A DNA stretch of 49,797 nt from Prevotella sp. (GTDB lineage Bacteria; Bacteroidota; Bacteroidia; Bacteroidales; Bacteroidaceae), in contig JAFTGH010000009.1 in assembly GCA_017458005.1 (NCBI GenBank), forward strand, positions 1 through 49,797. Direction: 5' to 3'. The position numbers and the translations under genes are program-made. Below, piece after piece: positions 5,628 through 40,863 of the stretch. The notes beneath the pieces are model-generated. The model did not search any database, was not told the DNA's origin, and was given only the letters and a program-made list of their open reading frames with translations. How positions within the stretch are numbered: the first letter of the stretch is position 1; every line of letters starts with the position of its first letter.

Positions 5628-7004
5628 ATGAATACACTATTCGACAAGATATGGGACAAGCATGTCGTCCAGAAAGTGGATGACGGACCCACCCAGTTGT
5701 ATATCGACCGTCTGTATTGCCATGAGGTGACATCGCCGCAGGCATTTGACGGCATGAGGGCTCGTGGACTGAAGTGTTTCCGTCCCGACCATATTTACTG
5801 TATGCCCGACCATAACACCCCGACACACGATCAGGACAAACCTATTGAGGACCCTGTATCGGCAAAACAGGTGTCAACACTGGCTAAGAACGCGAAGGAC
5901 TTCGGACTGACTCACTATGGAATGATGGACCAGTCGAATGGTATCATCCATGTGGTGGGACCAGAGAAGGGACTGTCATTACCGGGTATGACAATCGTCT
6001 GTGGTGACTCCCATACCTCTACGCATGGAGCGATGGGTGCCGTTGCCTTTGGAATCGGTACCAGTGAGGTGGAGATGGTGATGGCGTCGCAGTGTATCCT
6101 CCAGCAGAAGCCTAAGTCGATGCGCATCAGTATCAACGGAAAATTGGGAAAAGGCGTGACGGCGAAAGACGTGGCACTCTACCTGATGTCGCAACTGACA
6201 ACCTCTGGTGCTACAGGTTATTTCGTGGAATACAGTGGCGACGTGGTGAAGGACATGTCGATGGAAGGTCGCCTGACCCTCTGTAATCTGTCTATCGAGA
6301 TGGGTGCCCGTGGTGGCTTTGTCGCTCCCGACGAGACCACCTTTAATTATATAAAAGGTAAGGAGTTCGCTCCTAAGGGTGCTGACTGGGACAAGGCTGT
6401 TGCCTATTGGAAGACTTTGAAGAGCGGGGATGATGCCGTATTCGACAAAGAATTATCCTTTGACGCTAAAGATATAGAGCCTCGTGTGACCTATGGTACG
6501 AATCCTGGAATGGGTATCGGTATCACGGAGGCTATTCCTACTGAGGGTGGCGTGGGCTTTGAGAAGGCTCTCAATTACATGGGCTTTCAGCCAGGCGAGA
6601 AATTGCTGGGTAAGAAGATTGACTATGTATTCTTAGGTGCTTGCACCAATGGACGTATCGAGGACTTCCGTGCCTTTGCCGCTATTGCCAAAGGACGTAA
6701 AAAGGCTGACAACGTCATCGCCTGGCTGGTACCAGGCTCCTGGGCTGTCGATCGCCAGATTCGTGAGGAAGGTCTTGACAAGGTGTTGGAGGCTGCAGGC
6801 TTTGAGATTCGTCAACCAGGCTGTTCCGCTTGTCTTGCTATGAACGATGACAAGATACCCGCAGGAAAGTATTCCGTATCGACAAGTAACCGTAACTTCG
6901 AGGGTCGTCAAGGACCAGGCGCACGTACCATCCTTGCCTCTCCTTTAGTAGCCGCCGCTGCTGCCGTCACAGGTGTAATCACTGATCCAAGAGAACTATT
7001 ATGA
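5628..7004 (+). CDS. leuC: 3-isopropylmalate dehydratase large subunit
   Basis: 458 aa, full length for the family. With LeuD it isomerises 2-isopropylmalate to 3-isopropylmalate using a 4Fe-4S cluster. Aconitase-type motifs are clear: DKIWDKHVV near the N-terminus, [11 protein letters not shown] in the first third, and the cluster cysteines in [11 protein letters not shown] and [11 protein letters not shown]. It overlaps leuD by ATGA, consistent with stoichiometric translation of the heterodimer. Nothing is missing or odd. Confidence 0.96.
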
Positions 7005-7597
7005 AACAGAAATTCAACGTTATAACATCCACTTGTGTGCCCCTTCCTTTGGAGAATGTGGACACCGACCAGATTATTCCAGCCCGTTTCTTGAAGGCTA
7101 CTACCCGTGAGGAGAGTTTCTTTGGTGACAACCTCTTCCGTGACTGGCGTTATAATGCCGATGGGACTGTCAATAAGAACTTTGTGTTGAATGACCCTAC
7201 CTATGGTGGTTGTATCCTTGTGGCAGGTAAGAACTTCGGATCAGGTTCCAGTCGCGAGCATGCCGCATGGGCTATCGCTGGTTATGGATTCCGTGTGGTT
7301 ATCAGCAGTTTCTTCGCAGATATTCATAAGAATAACGAGTTAAACAACTTCGTGTTGCCAGTAGTGGTTAGTGAGCAATTCCTTGCAGAACTTTTCGAGA
7401 GCATCAAGCAGAATCCGAAGATGGAGGTTGAGGTTGATCTTCCTAACCAGACGGTTACAAACAAGGCAACAGGGAAACAGGAGAAGTTTGAGATTAACGG
7501 TTATAAGAAACACTGTCTGATTAACGGATTAGATGATATCGATTTCCTGATTCAGAATAAGGATAAAATCGAGCAATGGGAACAGCAGAACGCATAA
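7001..7597 (+). CDS. leuD: 3-isopropylmalate dehydratase small subunit
   Basis: 198 aa swivel-domain subunit of isopropylmalate isomerase. It shows the typical start ([19 protein letters not shown]) and the substrate-recognition loop region [16 protein letters not shown]. Its ATG overlaps the leuC stop and its 3' end overlaps the next gene by 22 nt, so leuCD and the following synthase form one tightly packed transcript. Confidence 0.96.
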
Positions 7598-37059: not shown

Positions 37060-37719
37060 CTAAAGTTTTACCTCTTTATCACATAACTCCCCGACAACAG
37101 AACGATGGGTAATAATAAGAATCGTTTTCTGCGGAAAGGCAGCAAAAAGTCGCCGATAAAGTTCTTGCTCTGTCTCTTCGTCAAGGCTGCTGCTGATTTC
37201 GTCAAGCAGGAGGATGTCGCCACCGTGGAGCAGTCCACGGGCGATGGCAATACGCTGGGCCTGTCCCTCGCTGAGTCCGCTGCCACGCTCACCAAGTTCG
37301 GTGCCGATGTCCTCGGGCAGGGTGTCAGTCGTGACCTTAATCACCTGCTCTATGTCCTTGGCCAGTCGCGAGGACACGTCACCCGAGTGAAGTTCGTCGC
37401 CCGTGAACAACTGTCTGCGAAACAGGCTGCCGAAGATGCGCAGGCGCAGGGCGTTCGACTGTCGGACACTCGCTGAGGTCGTCAGCCAATAGCCCACCTG
37501 TCTCAATAACACACCGCCCACAACAGTCAGCACCATCAGTTCTACCATCCGCAGCACGTCGTCAGCCGTGCCCGTGCGGATGGTCTCGTCGATGAACCGT
37601 TTGCTGAGCCACACCGTCAGCAGGCCAAGCACCACCTGGCCGGTGCCTGCCACGATGCGCACTACCGCATTCCAGCGGATGCCGCATGAGTTATGCCACA
37701 GCCAACTTAAATAATTCAT
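37060..37719 (-). pseudogene. Internally deleted ABC exporter of the RiPP cluster
   Basis: 219 aa where the family has about 550-600. Residues 1-134 are the start of an ABC transmembrane domain (WLSKRFIDETIR, LLRQVGYWLTTSASVRQSN, GDVSSRLAKDIEQV). From residue about 135 the sequence continues as the end of a nucleotide-binding domain: LPEDIGTELGERGSGLSEGQAQR, Walker B ILLLDEISSSLD and the H-loop THR. The rest of the membrane domain, Walker A and Q-loop are missing, about 330 residues, in frame. The product cannot bind ATP normally. It overlaps the PqqD-like gene by ATGA, showing that it was the exporter of this operon. Confidence 0.85.
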
Positions 37720-38000
37720 TTTTCTGGCTGATTCAGAATCACTCCTTCTTTCTCCAGTTTTTCTATGAGTTCCGTCACACTGGAGCGGGCCTCGTCCGCC
37801 ATCACGTCGTATTCCTCGCAGAGTCTGGCAGTCAGTGATTCCACCGTGAAGTCACCCTGCGCTTTCGCTTCGTTCCACAGCCACACGGCGCTTTCGTTCA
37901 AAGTGATTACCTTTCCAAAGTTGATGGATTTGATACCCTCACAGAAAATCACATTCTCTCCGCACACCTCGCGCAGCACAAAGTCGTTCTTTATCTTCAT
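37716..38000 (-). CDS. PqqD-like peptide-recognition protein (second copy)
   Basis: 94 aa, winged-helix PqqD/RRE family: beta-rich start VLREVCGENVIFCEG, then GKVITLNESAVWLWNEAKA and a helical C-terminus. Such proteins bind the leader of a precursor peptide and present it to the modifying enzyme. It lies between the HprK-like gene and the exporter remnant, while another PqqD-like protein lies next to the maturase. The two share the fold and the LNE-A motif but differ clearly in sequence, so they may serve different enzymes. Confidence 0.88.
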   Translation of the reverse strand: MKIKNDFVLREVCGENVIFCEGIKSINFGKVITLNESAVWLWNEAKAQGDFTVESLTARLCEEYDVMADEARSSVTELIEKLEKEGVILNQPEK

Positions 38001-38006
38001 ATTCTT

Positions 38007-38849
38007 CTACTTATTATTCTTGATGGTTTCATGGCACAGTCTTGCCGCCTCTTTGTCGGGCAGGCACTCCAGATGCCACAACGGTATGGTGGATGCCAGT
38101 CTGTTCTCCGTCTGATACAGGCACTCGGCGATACGGCTGTCCCATAGTTTGCCGCCGACGCTCTCCACCATCGCCAAATAAGCGTGGATGCCTCTAAGCC
38201 GCAGGATCTTGTTATGGGAGGCCTGGCTCAGCATGACAATGCCGCCAATGGGTACACTGACATTCCTGTAGCACGGCGTCTTGCCACTCCAGGGAGAGCC
38301 ATAGACTATGCCGTCTCTTACCACCGGATTGTCATCGTTGACCAACTCCGTCCCCCCGATATGCTTTATCCACAATTGGGCGTGCGTGCTTTTCCCCGTG
38401 CCGCTGGGGCCGAGGAACAGGTAGCCCTTGCCTTCACTGCTCACCACGGCGGCATGGAAGAGCAGCGTGTTCTTTCCCGCCGTCGCCAGGGCAAACATAA
38501 TCATCAGAGAATTATCAATAACCATTTTAGAAATGCGTCTCGTCATGATGATCTGTCCCTCTCGGTAGTCCTTGGAACATAATAGACAACCCCATGTTTT
38601 ACTTTTCCCCGCAAACTCAAACAGGTCGTTTCCCGATGCGGTATGACCGCAGATGATATCCGCATCGTCCTCCTTCTGCCGATGCACTTCCGTATATTCG
38701 GGCACTTCTCCACCTTCTGCTGTCAAAGCAAACAGCGGCTCACCGCCTTCGCATTCAAACGGCTCATAGTTTCTCATCTTCTCAAAGACTTCGCCCTCGC
38801 CGCTGACGGAAAACGTATGTCCTGCCACCTTGTAATATCTCGTCGTCAT
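38007..38849 (-). CDS. HPr-kinase-like P-loop protein of the RiPP cluster
   Basis: 280 aa from ATG 38849, 1 nt after the stop of the upstream PqqD gene; an ATG at 38864 is possible. The C-terminal half has FHAAVV, Walker A FLGPSGTGKSTHA (about 145-157), LVNDDNP (about 170) and GSPWSGKTP, the pattern of HPr kinase/phosphorylase-related proteins found beside PqqD in peptide-modification loci. The N-terminal 110 residues are unrelated to classical HprK. It could phosphorylate the peptide or a partner protein; no substrate is known. Confidence 0.82.
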   Translation of the reverse strand: MTTRYYKVAGHTFSVSGEGEVFEKMRNYEPFECEGGEPLFALTAEGGEVPEYTEVHRQKEDDADIICGHTASGNDLFEFAGKSKTWGCLLCSKDYREGQIIMTRRISKMVIDNSLMIMFALATAGKNTLLFHAAVVSSEGKGYLFLGPSGTGKSTHAQLWIKHIGGTELVNDDNPVVRDGIVYGSPWSGKTPCYRNVSVPIGGIVMLSQASHNKILRLRGIHAYLAMVESVGGKLWDSRIAECLYQTENRLASTIPLWHLECLPDKEAARLCHETIKNNK

Positions 38850-38850
38850 G

Positions 38851-39111
38851 CTATGCAATACCATTTTCAGTCAGCATATTGATGAAGGCGTTCACCTCGG
38901 CTTCGGCTTCCTGCGGTGTCACGTCATATTCCGCCAGCAGTTGGCTGACGATGGCTTGGGTGTTGGCACCGCCTGTCAAGGCCCGCAGGATGATGGCGCC
39001 CGTCTCGTTCAGGGTGAACACCTTTTCCACTTCTTCCGTCTCGCCGTTCTTTGCCAAGGCCACGAACTTGTCTGCCACCTCATGGATGGCTATGTCATAT
39101 TTCAGTTTCAT
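38851..39111 (-). CDS. PqqD-like peptide-recognition protein (next to maturase)
   Basis: 86 aa from ATG 39111 (MKLKYDIAIHEVADKF); an upstream extension in the maturase overlap is open but does not look like PqqD. Typical fold features: DKFVALAKNG, then KVFTLNETGAIILRALTGG and a C-terminal helix pair (LAEYDVTPQEAEAEVNAFI). Expected to bind the leader of the small precursor and hand it to the radical SAM enzyme, with which it overlaps by 17 nt. Confidence 0.88.
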   Translation of the reverse strand: MKLKYDIAIHEVADKFVALAKNGETEEVEKVFTLNETGAIILRALTGGANTQAIVSQLLAEYDVTPQEAEAEVNAFINMLTENGIA

Positions 39112-40426
39112 AGTCTTGCTTATTGTCGTTCTCGCGCAGATAGCGCTCGTATTCATATTTCATGCTCTCCTTCGTCTTGTATAGATGCTCCTTCTGGTCT
39201 CCCGACGTACAACCGAAAATATTCGGACACGCCACACGGTTACATTGTGGATAGTAGAAGCAGGTGGCGCAGGCATCCACGTCGGCTGTACGCTCCTTGA
39301 ACTTGCGGATGATGGCGTTGTCGCACTCCTCGCTGTCGATGTGGCCGAAGAACTCGCTGTCGGTGTAGTGCTCGCATTTGCCAAGGTGACCATCTGGAAC
39401 AATCACCACGCTTCCGTCGTGGTCGGCCAGACACATATGCAGTTTGATGTCCTTCTGCAATTTCCGCTTATGGTCGTAGCCACACGCCGCTATCTGCCGC
39501 ATCAACTGCATCCGCAGAGCAGAGATGGCCGTAGCGTCTTCTGGTGTGCGCTCAACACACAGTTCATGGGGATAGATGGTGAGATGCTTGTTGGTGCCGA
39601 ATCGCTGGTGCAGCAGTTCTATCAATTCTGCCAAATCCCTGATGTTGTATTGGTCGAAGTTCAGGCGAATGGACACATGAATACCTGCTGTGGTCAGCAG
39701 GCAGATGTTCTCCAGCACACGCTCGAAGGCATTCACGCCCCGATAGACGTAGGCCTTCACGCGGTTGTAGGTCTGCTCCGTGCCGTCGAGGGTAATCTGC
39801 ACCCGTTGCAATTGCCACAAATCCTTGGCGCGCTGCACATTGTCGGTATCGAACAGATAGCCGTTGCTTATCATGGTCGATTTGAAGGGTACGCCGAGGT
39901 CACTGAGTTCCGTGCATACCTGGTCGATAATCTTGGCGTTGACCAACGGCTCGCCGCCGAACCATCTAAGTTTGACTTTCTCATTCCCACGATGTCTCGC
40001 GATGTATCGCACCACCTTGCCGGCCGTCTCAGCGGTCATGGTGACGGGCTTCGTACCTTGCTGGTAGCAGTAGAAGCAGCGGGCGTTGCAGCCGGTAGTG
40101 GTGAGGATGGTGTAACTGCTGATAGCCTTGATTGCGGGCTTAGTGAGCGCTGCCATTAGGCGAATCTGTCGGCACAGTTTCTGGTCGTCGTGTTCTTGTG
40201 GCACCAGAAACCAGCGTTCTATCAGTTCCTTCTGCACCGGGATATCGGTGGCTTCATCGGGCGTCAGCAGCACCAGCGAGCAGGTCAGCGTGTTGTATAG
40301 CAGCAGACCGTCGGCTACGGGCTGCTGCACCACGTAGGTCATCAGGCGGTAGCGCTGACCGTCAGCGCGCTTCTGCTGCCCTACAATTTGTTCAACCAAT
40401 GAGGTTGTTGGGATAATGATTTGCAT
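39095..40426 (-). CDS. Radical SAM/SPASM peptide maturase
   Basis: 443 aa. The SAM-binding 4Fe-4S motif is C113-x3-C117-x2-C120 (CNARCFYC), followed by the GGEP motif (157-160). The C-terminal SPASM region carries C332, C351, C386, C389, C395, C400 and C406 for auxiliary clusters. The first ~100 residues resemble a leader-handling N-terminal domain of Bacteroidetes peptide maturases. It should modify the Cys-containing precursor encoded just upstream, for example by thioether or C-C crosslinks; which one cannot be told from sequence. Confidence 0.93.
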   Translation of the reverse strand: MQIIIPTTSLVEQIVGQQKRADGQRYRLMTYVVQQPVADGLLLYNTLTCSLVLLTPDEATDIPVQKELIERWFLVPQEHDDQKLCRQIRLMAALTKPAIKAISSYTILTTTGCNARCFYCYQQGTKPVTMTAETAGKVVRYIARHRGNEKVKLRWFGGEPLVNAKIIDQVCTELSDLGVPFKSTMISNGYLFDTDNVQRAKDLWQLQRVQITLDGTEQTYNRVKAYVYRGVNAFERVLENICLLTTAGIHVSIRLNFDQYNIRDLAELIELLHQRFGTNKHLTIYPHELCVERTPEDATAISALRMQLMRQIAACGYDHKRKLQKDIKLHMCLADHDGSVVIVPDGHLGKCEHYTDSEFFGHIDSEECDNAIIRKFKERTADVDACATCFYYPQCNRVACPNIFGCTSGDQKEHLYKTKESMKYEYERYLRENDNKQDYETEI

Positions 40427-40590
40427 TGTTCTCTATGTTTCATCAAACATATCAGCCACTGGAGGAGTCGTGCTCGGGTTTTGCTCACATGCGGAGTTCT
40501 ACGGAGTAAGAACCTCCGGTGGCCGATGCTAAGTTTTAGCCTCAACGCATGGGAAGAATCCCGATGCATCAGGCTATGCACATTTCATGA
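40427..40590. other. Spacer between precursor gene and maturase
   Basis: About 164 bp with an imperfect hairpin around 40490-40517 (arms GGAGTTCT and AGAACCTCC) that could reduce read-through from the precursor to the maturase gene, a common way to make more precursor than enzyme. The frame open across it has no recognisable features. Confidence 0.4.
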
Positions 40591-40705
40591 TTAGTCCCAC
40601 TCATCTTCTTCACAGTGTGCCGTGCAACTCGAGCAGATCCATACCAGTTGTCTTCAACTCTACCACCTGCATTTCAGGTTTCTCAAATTTCATTTTTACT
40701 TCCAT
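40591..40705 (-). pseudogene. Frameshifted second copy of the RiPP precursor gene
   Basis: From ATG 40705 the peptide reads MEVKMKFEKPEMQVVELKTT then GMDLLELHGTL and stops at 40610, because of one extra base relative to the intact copy (GATCC against GATC near 40637-40640, plus strand). If that base is removed, the frame gives ICSSCTAHCEEDEWD and ends at TAA 40591-40593 (37 aa). The restored core differs from the intact copy only at the C-terminus (EEDEWD against NEDEV). A real inactivating mutation, a sequencing error, or a population variant are the options. Confidence 0.8.
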
Positions 40706-40728
40706 TTTTGTAAAAGTTTAAATTGTTA
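40612..40728 (-). repeat. 117-bp tandem duplication, copy 1
   Basis: Matches 40747-40863 with no substitution and two single-base indels: one in the coding part, causing the frameshift, and one in a T-run upstream of the ATG. It covers the 5' region, leader and most of the core. The duplication is therefore recent. Confidence 0.9.
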
Positions 40729-40839
40729 TTAGACTTCATCTTCATTACAGTGTGCCGTGCAACTCGAGCAGATCATACCAGTTGTCTTCAACTCTACCAC
40801 CTGCATTTCAGGTTTCTCAAATTTCATTTTTACTTCCAT
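40729..40839 (-). CDS. RiPP precursor peptide, intact copy
   Basis: 36 aa: leader MEVKMKFEKPEMQVVELKTT, then GM and the C-terminal ICSSCTAHCNEDEV. The leader style (KFEKPEMQVVELKT) is typical of small Bacteroidetes peptides that pair with radical SAM maturases. The core has Cys24, Cys27 and Cys31 (C-x2-C-x3-C) with Ser, Thr and His between and an acidic tail, good acceptors for thioether or other crosslinks. No GG cleavage site is visible; GM at 21-22 may be the processing area. It is first in the minus-strand operon with the maturase genes and is too short for usual gene finders. Confidence 0.85.
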   Translation of the reverse strand: MEVKMKFEKPEMQVVELKTTGMICSSCTAHCNEDEV

Positions 40840-40863
40840 TTTTTGTAAAAGTTTAAATTGTTA
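40747..40863 (-). repeat. 117-bp tandem duplication, copy 2
   Basis: Partner of 40612-40728; contains the intact precursor's 5' region and core. Confidence 0.9.

Follow-up and report, generated by a model that had tools for sequence, protein, structure and literature searches.

One predicted system, the SynChlorMet cassette (ScmC/D/E/F), already combines a radical S-adenosylmethionine (rSAM) enzyme with a PqqD protein and an HPr kinase-like (HprK-like) protein, in that it includes the HprK-like ScmC, the PqqD-like ScmD and rSAM proteins. Among rSAM enzymes, CteB and SkfB are described as ranthi- and sactisynthases, respectively (PMC8326336). An HPr kinase homologue, PqqD and a nucleotidyltransferase are reported to be frequent in ruminal lasso peptide clusters (PMC7533575), and the nine Bacteroidales rSAM clusters for ribosomally synthesized and post-translationally modified peptides (RiPPs) selected in PMC10352776 are described there as having mostly double-glycine (GG)-type leaders and C39-peptidase exporters. 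Here we describe a cluster in a 49,797-nt stretch of DNA (the window), which is contig C43 of the 3.05-Mb draft genome of a Prevotella sp. (genome label G000; other genomes, contigs and loci carry G, C and L numbers). The cluster encodes a short Cys-bearing peptide, an rSAM/SPASM maturase, two PqqD proteins and an HprK-like protein. We interpret it, with a probability of roughly 0.7 for this explanation as a whole, as an rSAM RiPP operon whose substrate is a Cys-bearing peptide from a large Prevotella family. Three points are established: how the genes are ordered, to which family the leader belongs, and that the maturase is tightly linked to core Cys.

Precursor peptide

The intact precursor gene (40729..40839, minus strand) encodes a 36-aa peptide (MEVKMKFEKPEMQVVELKTTGMICSSCTAHCNEDEV). 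Its leader (KMKFEKPEMQVVELKTTG, then MICSS) follows the pattern MKKxYxxPxMxVVxLxxxxLLAGS of what we call the KP...LLAGS family, and is followed by a Cys core. A leader profile (A6), in which the window leader is one of 34 rows, finds the precursor in its own genome at E = 8e-12. The peptide reaches no NCBIfam or Pfam cut-off. MerTP was dropped as its identity (E = 0.0035, 17 bits against a cut-off of 180). Matches to DUF5972 (E = 0.12), DUF5646 (E = 0.042) and other noise-level library matches were dropped as well.

The leader is under purifying selection and the core is hypervariable. The ratio of nonsynonymous to synonymous substitution rates (dN/dS) in the leader is 0.18 (45 pairs of ten close-clade precursors), and mean identity is 93.7% for the leader, 41.3% for the core and 85.4% for the maturase (21 pairs of seven close-clade loci). 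Because the leader is conserved and precursors of the same type recur beside the maturase, the 36-aa frame is a gene with a variable core, as is typical of RiPPs. The original prediction, made from the letters of the window, had named two observations that would speak against it: maturase relatives lacking such a precursor, and a 36-aa frame not conserved as protein. We find instead that the precursor is kept near the maturase and that the frame is conserved.

Aromatic-acidic C-termini (WDD, WED, WDGDW, IFED, WDR) are frequent among these peptides, both in the precursors of L017, L018, L019, L060, L064, L070, L072 and L073 and in many peptides that are not linked to a maturase. The L064 precursor retains the SREFED motif of Cys-free peptides.

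Maturase and core cysteines

The rSAM/SPASM maturase (39095..40426, minus strand, 443 aa) matches Pfam Radical_SAM at E = 9e-18. The motif C113-x3-C-x2-C of the original prediction was found at C113, C117 and C120, and these residues are invariant in 11 aligned maturases, as are Cys 332, 351, 386, 389, 395, 400 and 406, with GX4C spacing at 346-351. The solved structures nearest to the maturase profile are CteB (5wgg, E = 1.5e-16), then SkfB and 8vpo. Its best NCBIfam matches, TIGR04463 (E = 2e-35, 122 bits against a cut-off of 525) and CefB (E = 7e-32, 111 bits against 600), are by name maturases of Cys-rich peptides, and both scores are far below cut-off. The PapB model NF047865 (E = 3e-22, 79 bits) does not reach its cut-off of 340 either.

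The next gene encodes PqqD1 (38851..39111, minus strand; Pfam PqqD 1e-16), a RiPP recognition element (RRE). Of 24 loci with a visible downstream stretch, 22 have PqqD directly after the rSAM enzyme or fused to it, and the other two, L063 and L075, have PqqD as the first gene of the operon. PqqD is fused C-terminally to the maturase in L020 (530 aa), which indicates that PqqD1 belongs to the rSAM enzyme, and is cut to 45 aa after the maturase of L019. The hallmarks of an rSAM/SPASM RiPP system are all found here, namely an rSAM domain with SPASM Cys, a precursor with conserved leader and variable core, and an RRE of the PqqD type. That the cluster is an rSAM RiPP operon is almost certain.

Relatives of the maturase came from three sources: a contig scan of genomes (5 loci), 399 genomes of the family (14 matches at E ≤ 1e-30, of which 5, its own included, have at least 32% identity) and 398 genomes of the genus (19 matches at E ≤ 1e-60, its own included). 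The examined set is 26 loci including the window, after removal of contigs seen twice (L058 and L059, on the same contigs as L016 and L017) and of nine weak family-scan matches (L006-L014, 25-31% identity, five of whose regions are L024-L028). The original prediction proposed a search for co-occurrence and core variation. Both are evident: a KP-type precursor adjoins the maturase in 25 of the 26 loci, and its core varies as given above. In 20 loci the precursor precedes the maturase on its strand or heads the operon; it is divergent in two (L021, L071) and convergent in three (L065, L067, L068).

All 25 maturase-linked peptides have Cys in the core, compared with 2 of 48 unlinked family peptides (Fisher p = 1.5e-17). 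The unlinked peptides comprise 38 from the top-scoring listed matches in genomes without a maturase match and ten from the window genome. The 38 came from 40 stretches, two of which (L206 and L226, a filler region) gave no peptide. At least two Cys are present in 20 of the linked cores and one in the other five, with up to ten in L073; the core boundary is a rule of thumb that is misplaced for L023 and L061, where the counts are unaffected. Because Cys is present in all linked cores and in so few unlinked ones, the enzyme probably acts on Cys.

What it makes of Cys is suggested by the peptides with the fewest. In L023, L065 and L068 the entire peptide contains one Cys. In L070 and L072 there are two, of which one is in the core and the other immediately precedes the core. 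Because three linked peptides have a single Cys in all, bonds from Cys to carbon are favoured over internal disulfides. The Cys core could instead form a metal-binding or disulfide peptide, with the rSAM enzyme making some other change, such as epimerization or a C-C or ether bond. Cores as rich in Cys as that of L073 would suit such a peptide, and rSAM/SPASM enzymes are generally known to be chemically versatile (PMC8326336). However, the single-Cys peptides cannot form an internal disulfide, the L070 and L072 peptides have only one Cys within the core, and Cys tracks the maturase (25/25 versus 2/48); we therefore regard this alternative as rather improbable.

Under the RiPP operon reading, PqqD1 would bind the leader and present it to the rSAM/SPASM enzyme, as association and homology suggest. 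The enzyme would then join core Cys sulfurs to carbons of other residues, with Ser, Thr, Asp and Glu among the possible acceptors, forming thioethers of the sactipeptide/ranthipeptide type. Thioether crosslinks on the core Cys are, in our assessment, likely.

Several points weigh against this reading. The 38 unlinked peptides are best-scoring rather than random matches, some of them near-copies of each other, and if the core boundary is drawn less strictly, a single Cys is counted in 8 of the 38 (two in none). The leader profile is passed at E ≤ 0.02 by 23 of the 25 linked precursors, several of which are rows of that profile; the L070 and L072 precursors were seen by motif only (E = 0.14 and 1.2), and five linked peptides have weak scores (E from 2e-3 to 8e-3). 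The peptides of L065, L067 and L068 are convergent to the maturase and each forms a pair with a tailed protein (see below); their role as substrates is suggested by proximity. No KP peptide lies beside the maturase of L066.

Other features of the maturase loci were also identified. A divergent GG-type leader peptide (LSEDDLDEVSGG, Cys in the core) lies beside the L066 maturase (L066:7200-7790), a possible leader swap. Divergent from the maturase of L068 is a gene (6119-7102, minus strand) for a 327-aa protein that ends in a PqqD domain (50% identity to PqqD1) and has a TGGLDST motif close to its start (the match to QueC is only E = 0.17). There are tandem duplications inside the cluster at L015:1965-3648 (two HprK genes), L016:4332-8737 (two maturases, the second one then followed by HprK) and L019:3505-5404 (shortened PqqD). 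A second, different rSAM protein (~360 aa) is encoded upstream of a KP/EP precursor, PqqD, S26 and HprK-like genes at L063:10419-11504, L075:465-1544, L138:2976-3965 and the start of L137.

HprK-like protein and its module

The HprK-like P-loop protein (38007..38864, minus strand) matches Pfam Hpr_kinase_C at only 0.0056 and scores 18 bits against TIGR00679 (HPr kinase/phosphorylase), for which the cut-off is 240. Its profile matches the HPr kinase structure 1ko7 at E = 1.4e-6. H137, G157-K158-S159 (T160 follows in the window protein) and D178 are invariant in 12 HprK-like rows, in register with 1ko7, and the first Asp of the DD pair varies. The gene is followed by that for a second RRE protein, PqqD2 (37716..38000, minus strand; Pfam PqqD 6e-14).

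The original prediction proposed two modification steps for a dedicated product, possibly crosslinking by the rSAM enzyme and phosphorylation by the HprK-like protein, each with its own PqqD. This is consistent with the presence of the HprK gene in the same run as the maturase in 10 of the 11 close-clade loci with enough sequence (L064 is without it), with the conservation of the catalytic-type His, P-loop and Asp, and with the phosphorylation of lasso peptides by HPr kinase homologues described in PMC7533575. However, the HprK-like gene is present in 216 of 249 genomes of the genus, mostly without this maturase, which was found in 19 of 398; thus, it is not specific to the window product. The more distant maturase loci have no HprK in the stretch examined, except L023. 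The near-invariant core Ser, moreover, sits in the (A)GS motif that ends the leader in the whole family, including clusters without a neighbouring HprK. We consider a dedicated two-step product to be improbable. The maturase tree has a clade of 14 rows (100/99) that comprises ten with HprK, L064, and L019, L066 and L074, for which the HprK region is not visible; L023 lies far off on a long branch.

Instead, the HprK-like protein and PqqD2 are part of a module of HprK, S24/S26-type peptidase, PqqD and in some cases ATP-binding cassette (ABC) exporter that probably serves the whole KP...LLAGS family, rather than a private second step. Of 16 HprK loci picked by hand, all have PqqD in the gene run of HprK, 15 have the S26 gene there and 6 have a recognized adjoining exporter. 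Thus, two dedicated steps are not borne out, given the spread of HprK and module membership in 15 of 16 loci. The proposed pairing of the PqqD proteins holds for PqqD1 with the rSAM enzyme and is not supported for PqqD2 as a private partner of the kinase-like protein. The GxSMxP and HRI motifs of the peptidase recall a Ser-His signal peptidase, as we read them; its matches to the NCBIfam signal peptidase (7e-4) and Pfam S24 (1e-3) are both below cut-off. Ten open reading frames (ORFs) neighbouring HprK were scanned. Three encode NTP_transf_5 nucleotidyltransferases beside the module (L141:7420-8523, L232:3122-4228 and L233:5996-7111) and five others encode sigma factors. No asparagine-synthetase cyclase or B2 protease turned up among the ten, and no aimed search was made for either; the loci themselves were scanned with profiles for rSAM, PqqD, HprK, S26 and ABC proteins. 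In L232 a family peptide lies directly upstream of an HprK-S26-PqqD-nucleotidyltransferase-ABC run.

We lean towards a function of the shared module in processing or exporting KP...LLAGS peptides. From gene order and co-occurrence, PqqD2 would hand the peptide to the HprK-like protein, S24/S26 peptidase and ABC exporter, and the module would cut the leader near its small-residue LLAGS end and export the product. The HprK-like protein may phosphorylate the peptide, use ATP in another way or act on a tailed protein; the first of these seems unlikely.

The wider peptide family and tailed proteins

Many other small peptides can be aligned with the window leader column for column, and their consensus is MKKxYxxPxMxVVxLxxxxxLAGS. 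None of the 19 family peptides scanned reaches an NCBIfam or Pfam cut-off. By leader profile, the family is present in 225 of 249 genomes of the genus at E ≤ 0.05, with up to 27 members per genome and 16 in the window genome.

HprK and the peptides are found together more often than expected. Within the genus, 206 genomes have both, 10 HprK only, 19 peptides only and 14 neither (p = 2.6e-8; cross-tabulated by hand from listings, with 17 unlisted genomes inferred from absence). For the 107 genomes with a completeness of 90% or more and a contamination of no more than 5%, the counts are 90, 6, 2 and 9, respectively (p = 7e-8). Across the order (149 genomes, 133 genera), 14 genomes have peptides, 23 have HprK and 10 have both (p = 7e-7). 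Thus, the co-distribution is not confined to one genus. At E ≤ 0.03, all nine peptide genomes besides that of the window have HprK, versus 22 of 148 overall (p = 7e-9). Some of the evidence points the other way. The 0.03 threshold was set after seeing the data, and at 0.05 there are four peptide-only genomes, all at E 0.04-0.05 (p = 7e-7). Neither the genus nor the order tables are corrected for descent. No peptide was detected in 10 of the 216 HprK genomes, and 19 of the 33 HprK-less genomes have some; 17 of these 19 are less than 90% complete.

Most family peptides are encoded next to a distinctive protein. Flanking DNA was examined for 48 family peptides. By profile, 41 of them come directly after a frame with a conserved C-terminal tail of ~30 residues, YDLxGRxVxxPxKGLYIxNGKKVIIK or something close to it; by eye the count was 40, the extra one being L223, with a repeat-like insertion near its end. 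In the window genome, 13 of the 16 peptides follow a tail of this kind at a distance of 16-87 nt, counted between the two profile matches, a spacing with a chance of ~0.002 per peptide. The genome has 46 such tails, and 33 of them have no peptide behind them. Both copies of the window precursor are among the three peptides without a tail in front. The 13 pairs are on contigs C3, C17, C52, C5, C44, C15, C51, C58 and C61 of G000, and loci L228-L231, L168, L177 and L179 cover ten of them. In G887, which belongs to another family, 15 of 17 peptides are behind tails, one of them just inside the 250-nt limit; no tail was found in G832. In L020 a tailed protein, a peptide and the maturase are encoded in one row.

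The eight tailed proteins inspected start with, or near, what reads as a signal peptide-like stretch. Domains among those scanned include BspA-type leucine-rich repeats (L020), Ig-like domains and GH81. The tails of three secreted-type proteins match no sorting family of the type IX secretion system (T9SS), even at E ≤ 10. We tentatively suggest a three-part system in Prevotella and some other Bacteroidales, consisting of large tailed proteins of secreted type, KP...LLAGS peptides, whose genes stand behind many of these proteins, and the shared HprK/S24-S26/PqqD/ABC module, which would process and export the peptides and perhaps join them to the tailed protein, or mature that protein, at the cell surface. 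The window rSAM cluster would then be a branch in which a Cys-bearing companion peptide is crosslinked first.

State of the cluster in the window

All cluster genes are on the minus strand, in the order precursor, frameshifted duplicate, rSAM/SPASM maturase, PqqD1, HprK-like protein, PqqD2 and a shortened ABC exporter. The maturase and PqqD1 genes overlap, as do those of PqqD1 and the HprK-like protein; 6 nt separate the latter from PqqD2, which overlaps the exporter gene by 4 nt. The gene set, strand, overlaps, short gaps and positions are those of the original prediction, apart from its second precursor gene. The 36-aa gene stands, and the 31-aa ORF (40610..40705, minus strand) is a duplicate that is 97% identical to it over 120 nt and in which a 1-nt length difference breaks the frame right after the leader. 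This is a recent tandem duplication with one frame lost, either biologically or through an assembly artefact.

The description of the exporter remnant (37060..37719, minus strand) can be made more precise. It is MsbA-like, and alignment to an intact 540-aa paralogue at G000:C46 shows that ~320 residues have been lost in frame from the middle of the protein, leaving residues 1-136 and the final ~83. From the alignment, the start of the membrane region and the end of the ATPase appear to be retained, and the Walker A region appears to be gone. The S26 gene, which lies between HprK and PqqD2 in L018, L060 and L061, is absent. Thus, the window copy of the module reads as decayed, with the peptidase gone, the exporter truncated and the second precursor frameshifted. 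With its last part degenerate, the cluster may not make its product today, which also counts against our interpretation.

These losses would be expected if the cluster were a remnant without a product. However, the frames for the precursor, rSAM enzyme, PqqD1, HprK-like protein and PqqD2 are open over their full length, an HprK-S26-PqqD-ABC set with full-length frames is present elsewhere in the same genome (G000:C46), and the frameshift may be an assembly error. We consider a remnant unlikely. In an active RiPP operon, the intact module copy at C46 may serve in trans.

A long imperfect hairpin is predicted in the transcript between precursor and maturase (40451..40528, minus strand). Its sequence is common to eight close-clade loci (the window, L015-L019, L060 and L061), three of which were folded (z of -2.8 for the window, -4.2 for L018 and -5.3 for L015). 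It was found in 4 of 10 genomes searched. Its matches are confined to precursor-maturase loci, except for a 36-nt fragment that precedes the second G434 maturase and for self-matches on the reverse strand. The hairpin matches no Rfam family, its covariation is not above that of shuffles (281/500), and it is absent from L064 and L074, where the gaps are 9-12 nt long, and cannot be recognized in L062. For these reasons we do not claim an RNA function. A 43-71 aa ORF runs through the hairpin spacer in several relatives and in the window.

Comparison with known systems

For studies of how rSAM enzymes act on Cys in Bacteroidales, the cluster is a compact and clean test case. It offers leaders that are 94% alike with widely differing cores, relatives with a single Cys and a discrete PqqD partner. 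The wider system of peptides, tails and module is the more surprising part. It involves a small-peptide family that some 90% of the sampled genus genomes carry, that has no NCBIfam or Pfam model and that is mostly paired with tailed secreted-type proteins. If that system is real, abundant bacteria of the gut and rumen commonly have a peptide pathway that has escaped study, and what HprK-like proteins do in it can be tested directly. Searches of an open-licence library turned up no account of the tail, of the KP...LLAGS family or of a link between that family and the HprK module, which is weak evidence that none exists.

The SynChlorMet cassette has the same parts list, and ScmC is the best NCBIfam match of the HprK-like protein (E = 3e-6, 27 bits against a cut-off of 125). 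The window differs in having one rSAM enzyme and probably in its precursor and peptidase.

With ranthipeptides (CteB/SCIFF, PapB/PapA) the cluster shares an rSAM/SPASM maturase, a Cys-rich core and acidic residues as possible acceptors. However, CteB is described as having its own RRE at the N-terminus (PMC8326336), whereas the window type has a separate PqqD or a C-terminal fusion. Its leader is different, and it lacks the regular CX3D pattern described as the PapB motif (PMC9413430). The partners of TIGR04463 and CefB are Cys-rich by model name, and the window maturase is far below both cut-offs.

The lasso accessory set resembles the module in its HprK and PqqD, both present in the window, and in the NTP_transf_5 gene beside HprK in L141, L232 and L233. 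It differs in that the module here has an S24/S26-type peptidase and the window cluster an rSAM maturase. The clusters of PMC10352776 are likewise from Bacteroidales, and the account of those selected there describes no HprK/S26 module. New in the window cluster, relative to these systems, are the separate PqqD, a leader family without a library model, the hypervariable core and, in relatives, the S24/S26-type peptidase.

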